Below, one piece after another: positions 14,986-19,845 of a stretch of DNA of 64,000 nucleotides. Where the stretch lies: NCBI GenBank assembly GCA_012744475.1, contig JAAYBV010000031.1, positions 1 through 64,000 on the forward strand, given 5' to 3'. How positions within the stretch are numbered: the stretch's first letter is position 1; every line of letters starts with the position of its first letter. Made by a program: the position numbers and the translations under genes. The notes under the pieces are model-generated. The model was given only the letters and a program-made list of their open reading frames with translations, was not told the DNA's origin and made no database searches. The DNA comes from Phycisphaerae bacterium (GTDB taxonomy: Bacteria > Planctomycetota > Phycisphaerae > Sedimentisphaerales > Anaerobacaceae).

Positions 14986-16014
14986 TCACATTTCGGGCCC
15001 GGAGAGCCAGACCTCGCCGTCGTAGCGCAGCATCACGAGGCCATCCTCGAACCTGTCGAAGGCGATGCGGGGCCGCTGTCCGCTGAGCTCCTGAAGAATC
15101 CACCTGGGGAAATCCGCTCCCGCCCGGATCGCCAGCGGCGCACCGCCGCCGAAACGAGGATTGACCTCGAGGATCTTGATGGTGCTTCTCTCGGTCACGA
15201 ACAGTTGAACCGTGATGACGCCCGGACCGGCGCCGAGCCGGCGGACCACCCCGGCCGCCGATTCCATGATGCGCCCATCCTTGACGACCTGCGCCTTGCT
15301 GACCTCGCCCGAGCGCACTTCGAGACGCCGGCGCGGGACGACGCATCGCACACGCTGTTCGAAATCAACATACACGTCACAGGTGTACTCAGTGCCTGTG
15401 ACGAGTTCCTGACAGATCGCGTTCGGGACTCGCCTGGCGAAGAAGAGCAACTCCTTGCGGTTGCGCGCGATGGTGTTGCCCTTGGCGGCGCTACCGTCCC
15501 ACGGCTTGAGCAGGCAGGGCCATGCCAACCGCCCTTTCCGGTCGGCCTCCAGAGCGGCACGTGGACTCCAGGTGCGCGGGCCGTCGAAGCCGTTCTGTCT
15601 GAGGAATCGACGGGTCAGCCTCTTGTCCTGGCATATGTCGATAACGCCCGGCTCGCTGACCAGCACGCGGCAGCCCAGCCGCTCGAAACGGGACCGGTGC
15701 GCCGCAAGGACTCGCAGATCGAGGTCCGTTGTCGGAACGACCAATCGGACCCCGCGATTCCTGACGATCGACAGGAGTTGGCCCACGTATCGCGGATGCG
15801 TGGTAGGCTCGACAAGAAAGGCCTCGTCGCAACATTGCAGCGCCGGGCTGAGCATCGTGACATCGGTCCCGCAGAAGCGGATGCGGCCCTTCAGTCGCCG
15901 GGCGGCCCGGCGAAAGGCCTTCAGCAGCGACACCCGGCGGCCGATGCAGGTAAACAGCACCGCCACGTCGCGTTCGGCGTGGCGACCGGATTTGCCCTTC
16001 CTGGTTCTGCGCAT
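14986..16014 (-). CDS. ATP-grasp enzyme (CarB-like)
   Basis: The 342-residue protein has an N-terminal pre-ATP-grasp Rossmann-like domain (AVLFTCIGRRVSLLKAFRRA, then CGTDVTMLSPALQCCDEAF). The ATP-grasp domain follows with CLLKPWDGSAAKGNT, FEQR...VPRRRLEVRSGE and the Mg-binding ILEVNPRFGGGAPLAIRAG. It belongs with carbamoyl-phosphate-synthase-large-subunit-like ligases that join a carboxylate to an amine or other nucleophile. The substrate is unknown; such genes often lie in polysaccharide or peptide-modification loci. The ATG at 16014 has a strong AGGAG with six-base spacing. The gene diverges from the NusG-like operon and converges with manA. Confidence 0.8.
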   Translation of the reverse strand: MRRTRKGKSGRHAERDVAVLFTCIGRRVSLLKAFRRAARRLKGRIRFCGTDVTMLSPALQCCDEAFLVEPTTHPRYVGQLLSIVRNRGVRLVVPTTDLDLRVLAAHRSRFERLGCRVLVSEPGVIDICQDKRLTRRFLRQNGFDGPRTWSPRAALEADRKGRLAWPCLLKPWDGSAAKGNTIARNRKELLFFARRVPNAICQELVTGTEYTCDVYVDFEQRVRCVVPRRRLEVRSGEVSKAQVVKDGRIMESAAGVVRRLGAGPGVITVQLFVTERSTIKILEVNPRFGGGAPLAIRAGADFPRWILQELSGQRPRIAFDRFEDGLVMLRYDGEVWLSGPEM

Positions 16015-16113
16015 CGTTGCTCCTGAGGCCCCAAAGGCGGGCGGTGAACGCGTCGATTGATCGTACATCGCGTCCGGCGGTCCGTCAATCCGCCAAGTCG
16101 TTCGCCGATTTCT

Positions 16114-16142
16114 TTGACAACCCCTGCGAACCGTTATAGACT
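16114..16142 (+). promoter_or_regulatory. Promoter of the NusG-like / glucuronate operon
   Basis: A perfect TTGACA (16114-16119) is followed after 17 bases by TAGACT (16137-16142). Transcription would start near 16149, which makes the ATG at 16155 too close to be a good start and leaves a leader of about 117 bases before TTG 16266. Confidence 0.6.
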
Positions 16143-16265: not shown

Positions 16266-16838
16266 TTGCTCAAGATCAATGAGAATCCCCCCATCCTCTG
16301 GCCACCGGTGGAGTCCATCCGGACCTTCGAGGGCCTCTGGTGGGTCGCGCATACCAAGAGTCGAAACGAGAAGGTCCTGGCCCACGACCTGATGGCCAAG
16401 AACATCAGTTACTTTCTGCCCATGACGCTGAAGGTCAGCCGGAGGAGCCATCGCACGTTCAAGTCGATGCTGCCCCTGTTCACTGGCTACCTGTTCTTCT
16501 GTGGCCGCGAAAATGACCGGATCGAGCTGCTCAAGACCAACCGCGTGGCCAACCTGCTGGAGGTGGTGGACCAGAAGACCTTCCTCAACGAGCTGGCCCG
16601 CATCGAGCAGGCGATCAGCGCCGGCGCTCCGTTGGTGCCTCACAAGTACATCGAGAAAGGTCAGTGGTGCCGCGTCATCGCCGGTCCGCTGCTCGGACTC
16701 GAGGGCATCGTTGTCCAGAACCGCGGCAACACCCGTCTGGTGCTCCAGATTGACATGCTGGGCCAGGCCGCGAGCGTCGAGATCGATGTCGACATGATCG
16801 AGCCGGTCGAGGGACGCCGCGCTCAGCCGTCTATCTGA
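16266..16838 (+). CDS. NusG-like transcription antiterminator (RfaH/UpxY type)
   Basis: The 190-residue protein has an N-terminal NusG domain beginning LWWVAHTKSRNEKVLAHDLM and a C-terminal KOW domain (KGQWCRVIAGPLLGLEGIVV). Specialised NusG paralogues of this kind bind RNA polymerase and read through terminators in long polysaccharide operons. I prefer the TTG start at 16266, with GGAG seven bases upstream, giving MLKINENPPILWPP. An ATG at 16155 would add 37 residues that look unlike any NusG and would lie almost on the transcription start. It heads the set of glucuronokinase, uridylyltransferase and epimerase genes, so it may control that operon. Confidence 0.82.
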   Translation: MLKINENPPILWPPVESIRTFEGLWWVAHTKSRNEKVLAHDLMAKNISYFLPMTLKVSRRSHRTFKSMLPLFTGYLFFCGRENDRIELLKTNRVANLLEVVDQKTFLNELARIEQAISAGAPLVPHKYIEKGQWCRVIAGPLLGLEGIVVQNRGNTRLVLQIDMLGQAASVEIDVDMIEPVEGRRAQPSI

Positions 16839-16955
16839 TAACGCGCGCCGGAACCGGGAACCGAATGCGATGCCCTGCGAATGTCCGAGAAGTCGCGGAT
16901 CGCCGGTGCAGGTGATGTGCGTGGCACATTGAGAAGCTTTGGCGAGGTGAATGCT

Positions 16956-17975
16956 GTGATCATCCGCACACATGCCTATCCGAGAGCGGGCCTGGTCGGA
17001 AACCCGTCGGACGGCTACTTCGGCAAGACCATCTCGTTCGTCTTCAGCAACTTCCGGGCCGAGGTGGTCCTGTACGAAACGCCGGAGCTGGAAATCCTGC
17101 CCAGCCAGAAAGACCATTCTTGCTTCAACAACATCGCGGACATCGTGCGCGACGTTCGCCTGCACGGCTACTACGGCGGCATCCGCCTGTTGAAGGCCAC
17201 CATCAAGACCTTCTACGATTACTGCCAGGACAACCAGATCGCCCTGCACGATAAGAACTTCACGATCCGCTACTGCTCCGACATCCCGCATGGCGTGGGA
17301 CTGGCCGGCTCCAGCGCGATCATCACCGCCTGCCTCCGCGCCCTGATGGCCTTCTACGGCGTCAGCATCCCCAAGTACGTCCAGGCCAACCTCGTGCTGG
17401 CGGCCGAGAAGAACGAGCTGCACATCCCCGCCGGTCTCCAGGACCGCGTCATTCAGGTCTACGAGGGCCTCGTGTACATGGATTTCGCCGAGGAGATCAT
17501 GACGCGACAGGGCTACGGCAACTACATGCCGCTCGACCCGGCCTTGCTGCCCCGCCTTTACGTTGCCTATCGCGACGATTTCAGCGAGCCGACCGAGAAA
17601 TTCCACCACAATATCCGCGTTCGCTTCGAACAGGGCGAGCGCAAGGTCGTCAATGCCATGCGGTTCTGGGCCCATCTGACGGACAAGGTCCGCCAGTGTC
17701 TGCTCAACGGCCAGACCGACCAGGTCGGCGAGCTTCTCGACGCCAACTTCGACCGCCGGCGGCAGATCTACAAGATCAGCGAGGACAACCTTCGGATGGT
17801 GGAGGCGGCCCGCTCGACCGGTGCCAGTGCGAAATTCACCGGTTCCGGCGGCGCCATCGTGGGGACGTACAAGGATGAGCGGATGTTCGCCGAGTTGCGC
17901 AAGCGATTAGGCAAGCTGAACATCAGCGTCATCAAACCGAAGGTCTTCAGCCCGGAGGCGAAGGCGCGAACATGA
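16956..17975 (+). CDS. GHMP kinase, probable glucuronokinase
   Basis: The 339-residue protein begins MIIRTHAYPRAGLVGNPSDG, the substrate-side motif of glucuronokinase-like GHMP kinases. The ATP-binding motif is PHGVGLAGSSAIITACL at about residues 109-125, and motif 3 is KFTGSGGAIVG near 290. Glucuronokinase makes glucuronate-1-phosphate from glucuronate and ATP. A GTG start at 16956 is supported by GAGG eight bases upstream and by the family N-terminus; an ATG at 16881 would add 25 residues unlike the family. The stop overlaps the start of the uridylyltransferase (ATGA), and an epimerase follows. That fits a salvage route glucuronate to UDP-glucuronate to UDP-galacturonate. The alternative would be another sugar kinase of the same superfamily. 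Confidence 0.78.
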   Translation: MIIRTHAYPRAGLVGNPSDGYFGKTISFVFSNFRAEVVLYETPELEILPSQKDHSCFNNIADIVRDVRLHGYYGGIRLLKATIKTFYDYCQDNQIALHDKNFTIRYCSDIPHGVGLAGSSAIITACLRALMAFYGVSIPKYVQANLVLAAEKNELHIPAGLQDRVIQVYEGLVYMDFAEEIMTRQGYGNYMPLDPALLPRLYVAYRDDFSEPTEKFHHNIRVRFEQGERKVVNAMRFWAHLTDKVRQCLLNGQTDQVGELLDANFDRRRQIYKISEDNLRMVEAARSTGASAKFTGSGGAIVGTYKDERMFAELRKRLGKLNISVIKPKVFSPEAKART

Positions 17976-18838
17976 TACGCAAGGCCGTCATTCCGGCGGC
18001 GGGATTCGGGACGCGATTCCTGCCGGCGACCAAGAGCCAGCCGAAGGAGATGCTGCCCATCGTCGACACGCCCGTGATCCAGTACGTAGTCGAGGAAGCG
18101 GTTGCAGCGGGAATCTCAGACCTGCTGATGATCATCGGCAAGGGCAAGCGCTCCATCGAAGAGCACTTCGATCGCAGCTTCCAGCTTGAAGCGCAGCTTC
18201 TGGCCAAGGGCAAGACGGACGAACTCGACGCGATGCGGCGAATCTCCGAACTGGCGGAGATCCATTTCGTCTGGCAGAAGGAAATGAGAGGTCTCGGCGA
18301 CGCGGTCTACTGCGCCCGGCACCACGTTCACGACGAGCCGTTCGTCGTCCTGCTGGGTGACACGCTGATCGACGCGCCGAAACCGGCGGCCGGCCAGCTC
18401 GTCGAGCTTTACGAGGAGCTCCAGGCGCCGGTCATCCTGGTCGAGGAGGTCGAGCCCAGGAAGGTTCACCTGTACGGCATCATCGACGGCGACGAGATCC
18501 GCCCGGGCGTCTATCGGATTCGCGACTTCGTCGAGAAGCCCAGCGCCGCCGAGGCGCCGTCGAACCTGGCCATCGCCGGACGCTACCTGCTGACGGCGGA
18601 CATCTTCGACCTCATCGGGACAACCGGACCCGACCGGGGCGGTGAGATTCAACTGACCGACGCCCTGCGGGCCCTGGTCCGACGGCGCCCCATGTACGGA
18701 TTGAAGCTCGACGGGCGACGCTGTGACATCGGCAACAAAGACGGCTTCATCCGAACCAACATCGAATTTGCGTTGAAACGCCAGGACATGGCCGAGGACA
18801 TGGTGCAATACATCAAGCGACTGGCGCAGACGCTCTGA
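17972..18838 (+). CDS. galU: UTP--sugar-1-phosphate uridylyltransferase (GalU type)
   Basis: The 288-residue enzyme transfers UMP to glucose-1-phosphate or a related sugar phosphate. It has the nucleotidyltransferase start IRKAVIPAAGFGTRFLPATK and PKEMLPIVDTPVIQYVVEEA, both diagnostic of GalU. The middle has LGDTLIDAPKP, VEEVEPRKVHLYGII, and the sugar-binding FVEKPSAAEAPSNLAIAGRY. The Lys-rich P-loop GTRFLPATK is intact. Next to a glucuronokinase-like gene it could accept glucuronate-1-phosphate as well as glucose-1-phosphate. This is inferred from context, as GalU families are usually glucose specific. Its start overlaps the kinase stop by four bases. Confidence 0.9.
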   Translation: MIRKAVIPAAGFGTRFLPATKSQPKEMLPIVDTPVIQYVVEEAVAAGISDLLMIIGKGKRSIEEHFDRSFQLEAQLLAKGKTDELDAMRRISELAEIHFVWQKEMRGLGDAVYCARHHVHDEPFVVLLGDTLIDAPKPAAGQLVELYEELQAPVILVEEVEPRKVHLYGIIDGDEIRPGVYRIRDFVEKPSAAEAPSNLAIAGRYLLTADIFDLIGTTGPDRGGEIQLTDALRALVRRRPMYGLKLDGRRCDIGNKDGFIRTNIEFALKRQDMAEDMVQYIKRLAQTL

Positions 18839-18891
18839 GATCGCGCCAGACTGGTCACATCCATCGACGACGCACAGAGGGGAGTAAGGAC

Positions 18892-19845
18892 ATGAAAGCA
18901 GTGGTCACCGGCGCGGCGGGGTTCATCGGCTCGCATCTGACCGAACGTCTGCTCCAGGAAGGTCACGCCGTCATCGGCATCGACAGCTTTGACACGTTCT
19001 ATGATCCGCAGATCAAGCGGCGCAATATCGCCGGGGCTCTTTCGCATCCGAGCTTTCGTCTTATCGAGGCGGACATCCGCGACCAGGCGGCTATGGAGCA
19101 GGCCATCGAAGGCGACGTTGACGTGATCGTGCACCTGGCGGCGCGGGCCGGCGTGCGTCCCTCGATCGAGCAGCCGGCCCTCTACAGCGACGTCAACATC
19201 AACGGAACGGTGGTTCTGCTGGAGATCGCGCGCACCCGCCACATCAAGAAGTTCGTCTTCGCGTCGAGTTCGAGCGTCTACGGTAACAACAAGAAGGTCC
19301 CGTTCTCGGAGTCCGACAACGTCGATTTCCCGATCTCGCCCTACGCCGCGACCAAGAAGGCGGGCGAGCTGATCTGTCACACATACCACCATCTCTATGG
19401 CATCGGCATGACCTGCCTGCGTTTTTTCACCGTCTATGGTCCCCGGCAGCGTCCCGACCTGGCCATCCACAAGTTCGCCCGGCTCATCGAGGCGGGCAAG
19501 CCCATCCCGATTTACGGCGACGGCACGATGCGGCGCGACTTCACCTACATCGACGACATCATCAACGGCGTCGTCGCCGCCATCGACAAATGCGCGGGCT
19601 ATCACATCTACAACCTCGGAGAGTCGCGTCCCATCTGCGTCAGCGACCTGATCGCCGAGATCGAGAAGGCCCTCGGCAAGAAGGCACTCCGGAACCATCT
19701 GCCCACCCAGCCCGGCGACGTCGATCAAACCTACGCCGACGTCGCAAGGGCCCAACAGGAGCTGGGCTACCATCCCGCCACCCACATCGCCACCGGCCTT
19801 GCCCGCTTCGTCCAGTGGTTGCGAGCCGAAGAGATGCGCCGCTGA
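18892..19845 (+). CDS. UDP-glucuronate 4-epimerase-like NAD-dependent epimerase
   Basis: The 317-residue short-chain epimerase has the NAD motif GAAGFIGSHL at 7-16, the catalytic Ser region FASSSSVYG, and YAATKKAGE with Tyr-x3-Lys. The segment TVYGPRQRPDLAIHKF is shared with UDP-glucuronate 4-epimerases and GDP/UDP-sugar epimerases. It would convert UDP-glucuronate to UDP-galacturonate. RBS GAGGGGAG lies a few bases upstream of ATG 18892. It follows galU by 53 bases and ends the operon. UDP-glucose 4-epimerase activity is the main alternative. Confidence 0.82.
   Translation: MKAVVTGAAGFIGSHLTERLLQEGHAVIGIDSFDTFYDPQIKRRNIAGALSHPSFRLIEADIRDQAAMEQAIEGDVDVIVHLAARAGVRPSIEQPALYSDVNINGTVVLLEIARTRHIKKFVFASSSSVYGNNKKVPFSESDNVDFPISPYAATKKAGELICHTYHHLYGIGMTCLRFFTVYGPRQRPDLAIHKFARLIEAGKPIPIYGDGTMRRDFTYIDDIINGVVAAIDKCAGYHIYNLGESRPICVSDLIAEIEKALGKKALRNHLPTQPGDVDQTYADVARAQQELGYHPATHIATGLARFVQWLRAEEMRR

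Follow-up and report, generated by a model that had tools for sequence, protein, structure and literature searches.

Could a bacterium return free glucuronate to its pool of nucleotide sugars through a kinase and a uridylyltransferase, as plants do? In the usual account, bacteria make uridine diphosphate (UDP)-glucuronate with UDP-glucose dehydrogenase. The question is raised by a four-gene operon of a Phycisphaerae bacterium (assembly GCA_012744475.1; 5.75 Mb in 118 contigs, 99.6% complete), which lies in the 64,000-nucleotide (nt) stretch of contig JAAYBV010000031.1 that we analyzed as a whole and call the window (contig C118 in our numbering). A preliminary description of this DNA had read the operon as a NusG-like gene followed by glucuronokinase, galU, and UDP-glucuronate 4-epimerase genes, with four bases shared by the first two enzymes. 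We found all four co-directional open reading frames (ORFs) at the positions, in the order, and on the strand described, and the overlap is the ATGA in which the kinase stops and galU starts. The features of the operon are as follows.

16266–16838, plus strand: specialised NusG paralog, similar to UpxY, LoaP, and RfaH, TTG start (PF02357; UpxY model, 86.2 bits)
16956–17975, plus strand: GHMP sugar kinase with a GTG start, predicted to be a glucuronate 1-kinase (GHMP_N and GHMP_C domains)
17972–17975, plus strand: ATGA start–stop overlap of the kinase gene and galU, read from the sequence
17972–18838, plus strand: GalU-family uridylyltransferase (TIGR01099), predicted to take glucuronate 1-phosphate (GlcA-1-P)
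18359–18364, plus strand: codons of the metal-binding Asp130 and the diagnostic Thr131 of GalU, equivalent to YngB Asp133/Asp134
18892–19845, plus strand: predicted UDP-glucuronate 4-epimerase, with Ser126, Ser127, Ser128, Tyr151, Lys155, Thr180, and Arg187

We consider it likely that these genes contain a bacterial module of glucuronokinase and GlcA-1-P uridylyltransferase, here extended to UDP-galacturonate. The kinase would phosphorylate free D-glucuronate at C1 with adenosine triphosphate (ATP), the GalU-family enzyme would convert GlcA-1-P and uridine triphosphate (UTP) to UDP-glucuronate, and the epimerase would turn UDP-glucuronate into UDP-galacturonate for cell-surface polymers. The kinase and the uridylyltransferase would constitute a two-gene module of Planctomycetes–Verrucomicrobia–Chlamydiae (PVC) and some other bacteria, to which part of the Planctomycetota would have added the NusG paralog and the epimerase and, in some cases, also a UDP-glucose dehydrogenase. 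The preliminary description is probably right in substance, and the picture is broader than it proposed, the core being the conserved kinase–uridylyltransferase pair.

How widespread is this pair? When bacterial and archaeal genomes were scanned, 517 relatives of the kinase were confirmed, and the locus counts given here use the best 80. By record title, these 80 loci belong mostly to the Planctomycetota, Verrucomicrobia, Kiritimatiellae, and Lentisphaerae, with a few others, e.g., Chitinivibrionales. In 68 of the 80, the kinase is followed by a same-strand galU; the gap between the two, measured from tblastn ends, is at most 100 nt in 61 of these 68, and 25 of the 68 have a 4-nt overlap. Among the 12 loci without a downstream galU, the contig ends within 0.6 kb in four and leaves room in eight. 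The kinase was found in 15 of 246 genomes sampled from the phylum of the source organism and in 60 of 194 genomes of the phylum of G071 (locus L055, Verrucomicrobiales), while the source genome and 60 relatives (61 genomes) gave 12 matches, eight of them strong. It also occurs on one plasmid among 72,556 records, a Bacteroidota plasmid (Rufibacter) on which the kinase and GalU are neighbors, annotated as "GHMP kinase" and "GalU". In genome G014, the kinase is in two pieces with a gap mid-gene (L021:6688–7532), the cause being gene decay or misassembly.

The co-occurrence of the two genes extends beyond their adjacency. When a match at E ≤ 1e-65 was taken as presence, GalU was found in 52 of the 60 kinase genomes of the G071 phylum versus 1 of the 134 kinase-less ones (Fisher p = 2e-37, uncorrected for kinship). 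The two genes are adjacent in 43 of these 52 genomes and unlinked in nine, and because of these nine, linkage alone is insufficient to account for the co-occurrence. In the Planctomycetota, GalU was found at 1e-50 in none of 50 kinase-less genomes (40 of the 49 relatives without a kinase match plus 10 from the own-phylum sample), whereas all eight strong kinase carriers among the 60 relatives and the source genome have it. Furthermore, each of the 50 kinase genomes reached via the loci has one GalU-like match of at least 277 bits. The kinase and GalU are one functional unit.

Does GalU itself bear a mark of this association? In the window protein, the metal-binding Asp130 is followed by Thr131, and the Asp that YngB and PaUGP have at this place is missing. 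The best PDB match, Bacillus subtilis YngB (PDB 7b1r, 307 bits), is a GalU-type UDP-glucose pyrophosphorylase (UGPase) of the same family in which the equivalent residue, Asp134, is described as a predicted glucose contact (PMC7961091), and the D131A mutation rendered the Pseudomonas enzyme PaUGP almost inactive (PMC11796359). An Asp at this place is a feature of YngB and PaUGP and is not universal in GalU. Whereas YngB retains its Asp134, the kinase-associated GalUs carry Thr: we observed Thr131 in 93 of 97 of them, linked or unlinked, and in none of seven plasmid-borne controls, which have Asp (four), Val (two), or Met (one). The sole GalU from a kinase-less genome in the G071-phylum sample (G449) has Thr as well. 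In a tree of 64 rows, a branch supported at 100/97 sets the controls apart from the rest. With one negative charge fewer next to the sugar, the site would suit a uronate. Columns 95, 98, and 202 also separate the groups at 90%; these are unconnected to known contacts and were not used. An Asp at position 110 (64 of 66) was dropped as a diagnostic residue because two of the seven controls have Asp too. A set of ORFs of ~650–790 residues with a GalU-like domain (181–193 bits; contig C46 of G082, C99 of G099, C41 of G072, C52 of G106, and others) are perhaps fusions.

The epimerase would tie the pair to uronates. The window protein is an NAD (nicotinamide adenine dinucleotide) epimerase whose best solved relatives are 5u4q and 6zl6. 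Published descriptions of the Bacillus cereus enzyme BcUGAepi locate the substrate carboxylate among Thr126, Ser127, Ser128, and Thr178, assign Arg185 to the carboxylate of the product, and name Tyr149 as the base; decarboxylases have Glu in place of Ser128. The signature that we examined, in BcUGAepi numbers, was Thr/Ser-Ser-Ser at 126–128 without Glu, Tyr149, Lys153, Thr178, and Arg185; at these sites the window enzyme has Ser126, Ser127, Ser128, Tyr151, Lys155, Thr180, and Arg187, and no Glu. Thus, all the compared carboxylate and catalytic positions of the B. cereus UDP-glucuronate 4-epimerase (PDB 6zl6) are kept, its Thr126 being Ser here, although this is a distant relative (226 bits). 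In agreement with the UDP-glucuronate 4-epimerase of the preliminary description, the enzyme is very probably specific for UDP-glucuronate. The same seven letters (SSS-Y-K-T-R) occur in 21 downstream partners, that of the Fibrobacterota locus L096 included, and in four epimerase partners from the G071 phylum. They are lacking in 10 other matches of the short-chain dehydrogenase/reductase type in the kinase loci, and the epimerase of L085 (36%) has the signature broken at the last two places.

Is the order of the four genes a matter of chance? In 22 Planctomycetota loci (L032–L053, five of them from the same genomes as members of the 60-relative set), the signature epimerase stands downstream of the kinase in 20 and NusG upstream in 13. 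The recurrence of both across these loci shows that the order is not accidental. In L019 (1495–1998, minus strand), L043, L044, and L047, galU and the epimerase gene are separated by a gene for a small protein that matches neither Pfam nor NCBIfam.

The neighbors of the kinase bear on which uronate it would take. Seven of the 22 Planctomycetota loci have a UDP-glucose dehydrogenase gene, in one case cut by a contig end, immediately before the kinase, and the two such dehydrogenases that were scanned are nearest to TuaD. In genomes G517, G452, G458, and G471, which have GalU elsewhere and provide the strongest contexts, the kinase stands between a UDP-glucose dehydrogenase and an SSS-Y-K-T-R epimerase; the dehydrogenases scanned in G517 and G471 are of two NCBIfam types, one nearest to NF011631 and the other to TuaD, pointing to recruitment on more than one occasion. 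In L095, a locus of the Opitutia, the gene after the kinase–GalU pair is for a UDP-glucuronate decarboxylase (358.7 bits to PDB 4gll). The flanks are otherwise mixed, with no family in more than three of the close same-strand neighbors (25 upstream, 19 downstream) of loci L054 onward. Hexokinase matches are found among these upstream neighbors in two of 25, and in G456 a PF00349/PF03727-type hexokinase lies directly upstream of the kinase (L212:3–1211).

Could the kinase act on galacturonate instead, with galacturonate 1-phosphate leading to UDP-galacturonate and the epimerase working toward UDP-glucuronate? The epimerase is reversible, and the same neighbors would be expected. The source genome also has a gene for the uronate isomerase UxaC, whose family handles galacturonate as well. 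On the other hand, the core pair occurs without the epimerase in most loci, and the neighbors, UDP-glucose dehydrogenase and UDP-glucuronate decarboxylase, all center on UDP-glucuronate. The window kinase presumably also resembles plant glucuronokinase more than galacturonokinase. We therefore regard a galacturonokinase as unlikely, and the gene setting points to glucuronate as the substrate.

What does the kinase itself tell? Its GTG start at 16956 is conserved in an alignment with seven relatives, giving a protein of 339 residues, and the additional residues of the ORF that opens at 16881 lack conservation. The structure model (mean predicted local distance difference test score of 89.0, from the 44-row alignment A2) has the GHMP sugar kinase fold, with Z ~32, a root-mean-square deviation of 2.3–2.8, and more than 300 residues aligned to galactokinases and the heptokinase WcbL. 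No chain named glucuronokinase is among the VIA-align structure matches listed for the model; likewise, the 44 kinase rows match 15 NCBIfam families, none of them a glucuronokinase, and NCBIfam has no model so named. The Asp and Arg of the motif AGLQDRV, the former of which we take to be the catalytic Asp of the GHMP family, are invariant in 44 of 44 aligned rows. Plant glucuronokinase presumably shares the motifs of the window kinase. In the heptose kinases 3k85 and 4n3o, Gln stands where the window-type kinases have the Arg of AGLQDRV, and one may speculate that this Arg holds the substrate carboxylate. Heptose kinases are also the best PDB sequence matches, which would fit a kinase for heptose or another unrelated substrate that stands in this operon by accident. 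However, the heptose kinase model gives 48 bits against a cut-off of 600, and the conserved partner is of the UTP type, unlike HddC (NF049965), the partner named for heptose, which is a guanosyltransferase. We consider such a substrate highly improbable.

Several observations weigh against a pair dedicated to glucuronate. The kinase model is structurally about equally near to galactokinases, heptokinases (WcbL), and mevalonate kinases. The window GalU passes the UDP-glucose pyrophosphorylase model (TIGR01099, 350.7 bits, cut-off 326.8) and is the sole one above the cut-off in its genome; consequently, it may also make UDP-glucose. KpUGP has Val at the position of Thr131 and tolerates its change (V138A, 67%; V138D, 61%; PMC11796359), and six UGPases tested elsewhere are specific for glucose 1-phosphate. 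L080 and L096 have GDP (guanosine diphosphate)-mannose dehydratase genes ahead of the pair, which lend no support to uronates. The dehydrogenase-like family TIGR03026 is present in 48 of the 50 kinase genomes (above the cut-off in 45), which indicates that the kinase route is not the sole source of UDP-glucuronate. Finally, eight of the 60 kinase genomes of the G071 phylum have no GalU at the threshold, and in five of these eight there is no nucleotidyltransferase match beside the kinase. Among the GalU-less genomes, the kinase neighborhood of G514 stops at a contig edge, and G529 has a short GalU-like gene immediately before the kinase. In G525, another PF00483 nucleotidyltransferase, nearest to the model of haloarchaeal AglF (90.7 bits, cut-off 400), lies 21 nt past the kinase in the place of GalU.

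Some of these points would suit a kinase for a neutral sugar such as galactose, glucose, or xylose that is paired with an ordinary UDP-glucose pyrophosphorylase: GalU is above its family cut-off and alone in the genome, and the kinase fold is the galactokinase fold. Such a pairing would leave unexplained the triplets of UDP-glucose dehydrogenase, kinase, and uronate epimerase, the UDP-uronate neighbors, and the absence of GalU from kinase-less relatives. Moreover, the best galactokinase models give 35.5 bits (cut-off 509) and 33.0 bits (cut-off 443). We judge a neutral sugar to be quite improbable and retain glucuronate as the predicted substrate.

What, then, would the operon add to the cell? 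Given the UxaC gene, free glucuronate is probably available inside it. A role of the kinase as a replacement for UDP-glucose dehydrogenase is ruled out by the distribution of TIGR03026, and the source genome has three UDP-glucose dehydrogenase-like genes above the cut-off, so that the operon would be a second, salvage entrance to UDP-uronates. It is plausible that uronic acids are recycled in this way into surface polymers. PF01704 (51 of 61 relatives) was considered as the housekeeping UDP-glucose enzyme and rejected, the protein of the source genome being closest to UDP-N-acetylglucosamine pyrophosphorylases.

The same two steps, glucuronate to GlcA-1-P to UDP-glucuronate, are described for the plant glucuronokinase, also a GHMP kinase, and UDP-sugar pyrophosphorylase (Arabidopsis GlcAK and USP; PMC3938481). 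The plant partner, however, is the broad USP, whereas here it is GalU, and plants obtain glucuronate from myo-inositol oxygenase, for which (PF05153) we found no match in 61 genomes in a search in which no positive control rang, which makes it weak evidence of absence. In the zebrafish protein DrGKUP, a glucuronokinase, glucuronate-specific among nine sugars tested, is coupled to a short bacterial-type nucleotidyltransferase, as kinase and nucleotidyltransferase are paired here; in animals, though, the two are fused, the nucleotidyltransferase is a different one, and the second activity is described as very low (PMC3938481). The account of the tree in that paper gives bacteria and archaea the pyrophosphorylase only, and the tree of the fused pyrophosphorylase also contains haloarchaeal and Verrucomicrobium members (PMC3938481). 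At L214:3001–3741, a 246-residue nucleotidyltransferase nearest to haloarchaeal AglF stands behind the kinase in the place of GalU; this may be a bacterial split form of the animal fusion.

The preliminary description had called the pathway rarely described in bacteria. In the open-access literature, which was the scope of our search to the exclusion of subscription papers and preprints, we found no bacterial glucuronokinase; the work there concerns plants, animals, and enzymatic synthesis with the Arabidopsis enzymes, and according to a paper from 2019, bacteria commonly use the dehydrogenase route. The gene pair itself, on the other hand, is common, as the 517 relatives and the 60 of 194 genomes attest.

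Does a specialised antiterminator head the operon, as was first supposed? A NusG paralog does stand there; it has an NGN domain (PF02357, 35.8 bits) and matches KOW weakly. The reading frame is open from 16155, and the TTG at 16266 fits both the start given in the preliminary description and a homolog starting at the same place. With UpxY, LoaP, and RfaH it shares the NGN domain and the position at the head of a sugar-related operon. However, it is below every specific cut-off (UpxY NF033644, the best NCBIfam match, 86.2/100; the others, 43.3/125 and 45.9/144.5). The window NusG is a sub-threshold relative of UpxY and heads the operon in only part of the Planctomycetota; it may act by antitermination. 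A terminator or RNA element between NusG and the kinase was considered and rejected because the stretch is poorly conserved and terminator-like sites in the region show no excess over chance. Promoter-like sites number two in the region versus a shuffle mean of 0.8. Two features lie ahead of the operon.

16114–16142, plus strand: promoter-like site TTGACA-17-TAGACT, 10 of 12 consensus matches, a consensus match only
14986–16068, minus strand: PylC-like ATP-grasp gene, a divergent neighbor adjoining NusG, outside the assigned parts

The PylC-like gene is kept beside NusG in related loci.

We found no kinase homolog in the phage collection. The IMG/VR contig IMGVR_UViG_3300009034_002981 (L223:35–5333) carries one with 45% identity, located between RecA and QueD-like (PTPS)/radical-SAM genes with a QueC-like gene upstream, and a second viral homolog (37%) lies in L224. 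A uronate sugar in phage 7-deazaguanine DNA modification is a possible role for the L223 kinase.

A widespread kinase–uridylyltransferase module would add a salvage entrance to UDP-glucuronate from free uronic acid; PVC bacteria that break down polysaccharides should liberate large amounts of this acid. The module would assign a function to hundreds of proteins named only "GHMP kinase", and it offers a candidate efficient partner for glucuronokinase, the pair being useful for UDP-glucuronate production without NAD, with Thr131 as a testable residue for uronate specificity. More tentatively, the GalU branch with the Asp-to-Thr mark could be a dedicated GlcA-1-P uridylyltransferase working solely with a bacterial glucuronokinase, in which case many PVC GalU annotations would be functionally wrong and bacteria would possess a complete equivalent, assembled separately, of the UDP-glucuronate salvage of plants and animals. 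The module would also bear on the origin of the eukaryotic glucuronokinase.

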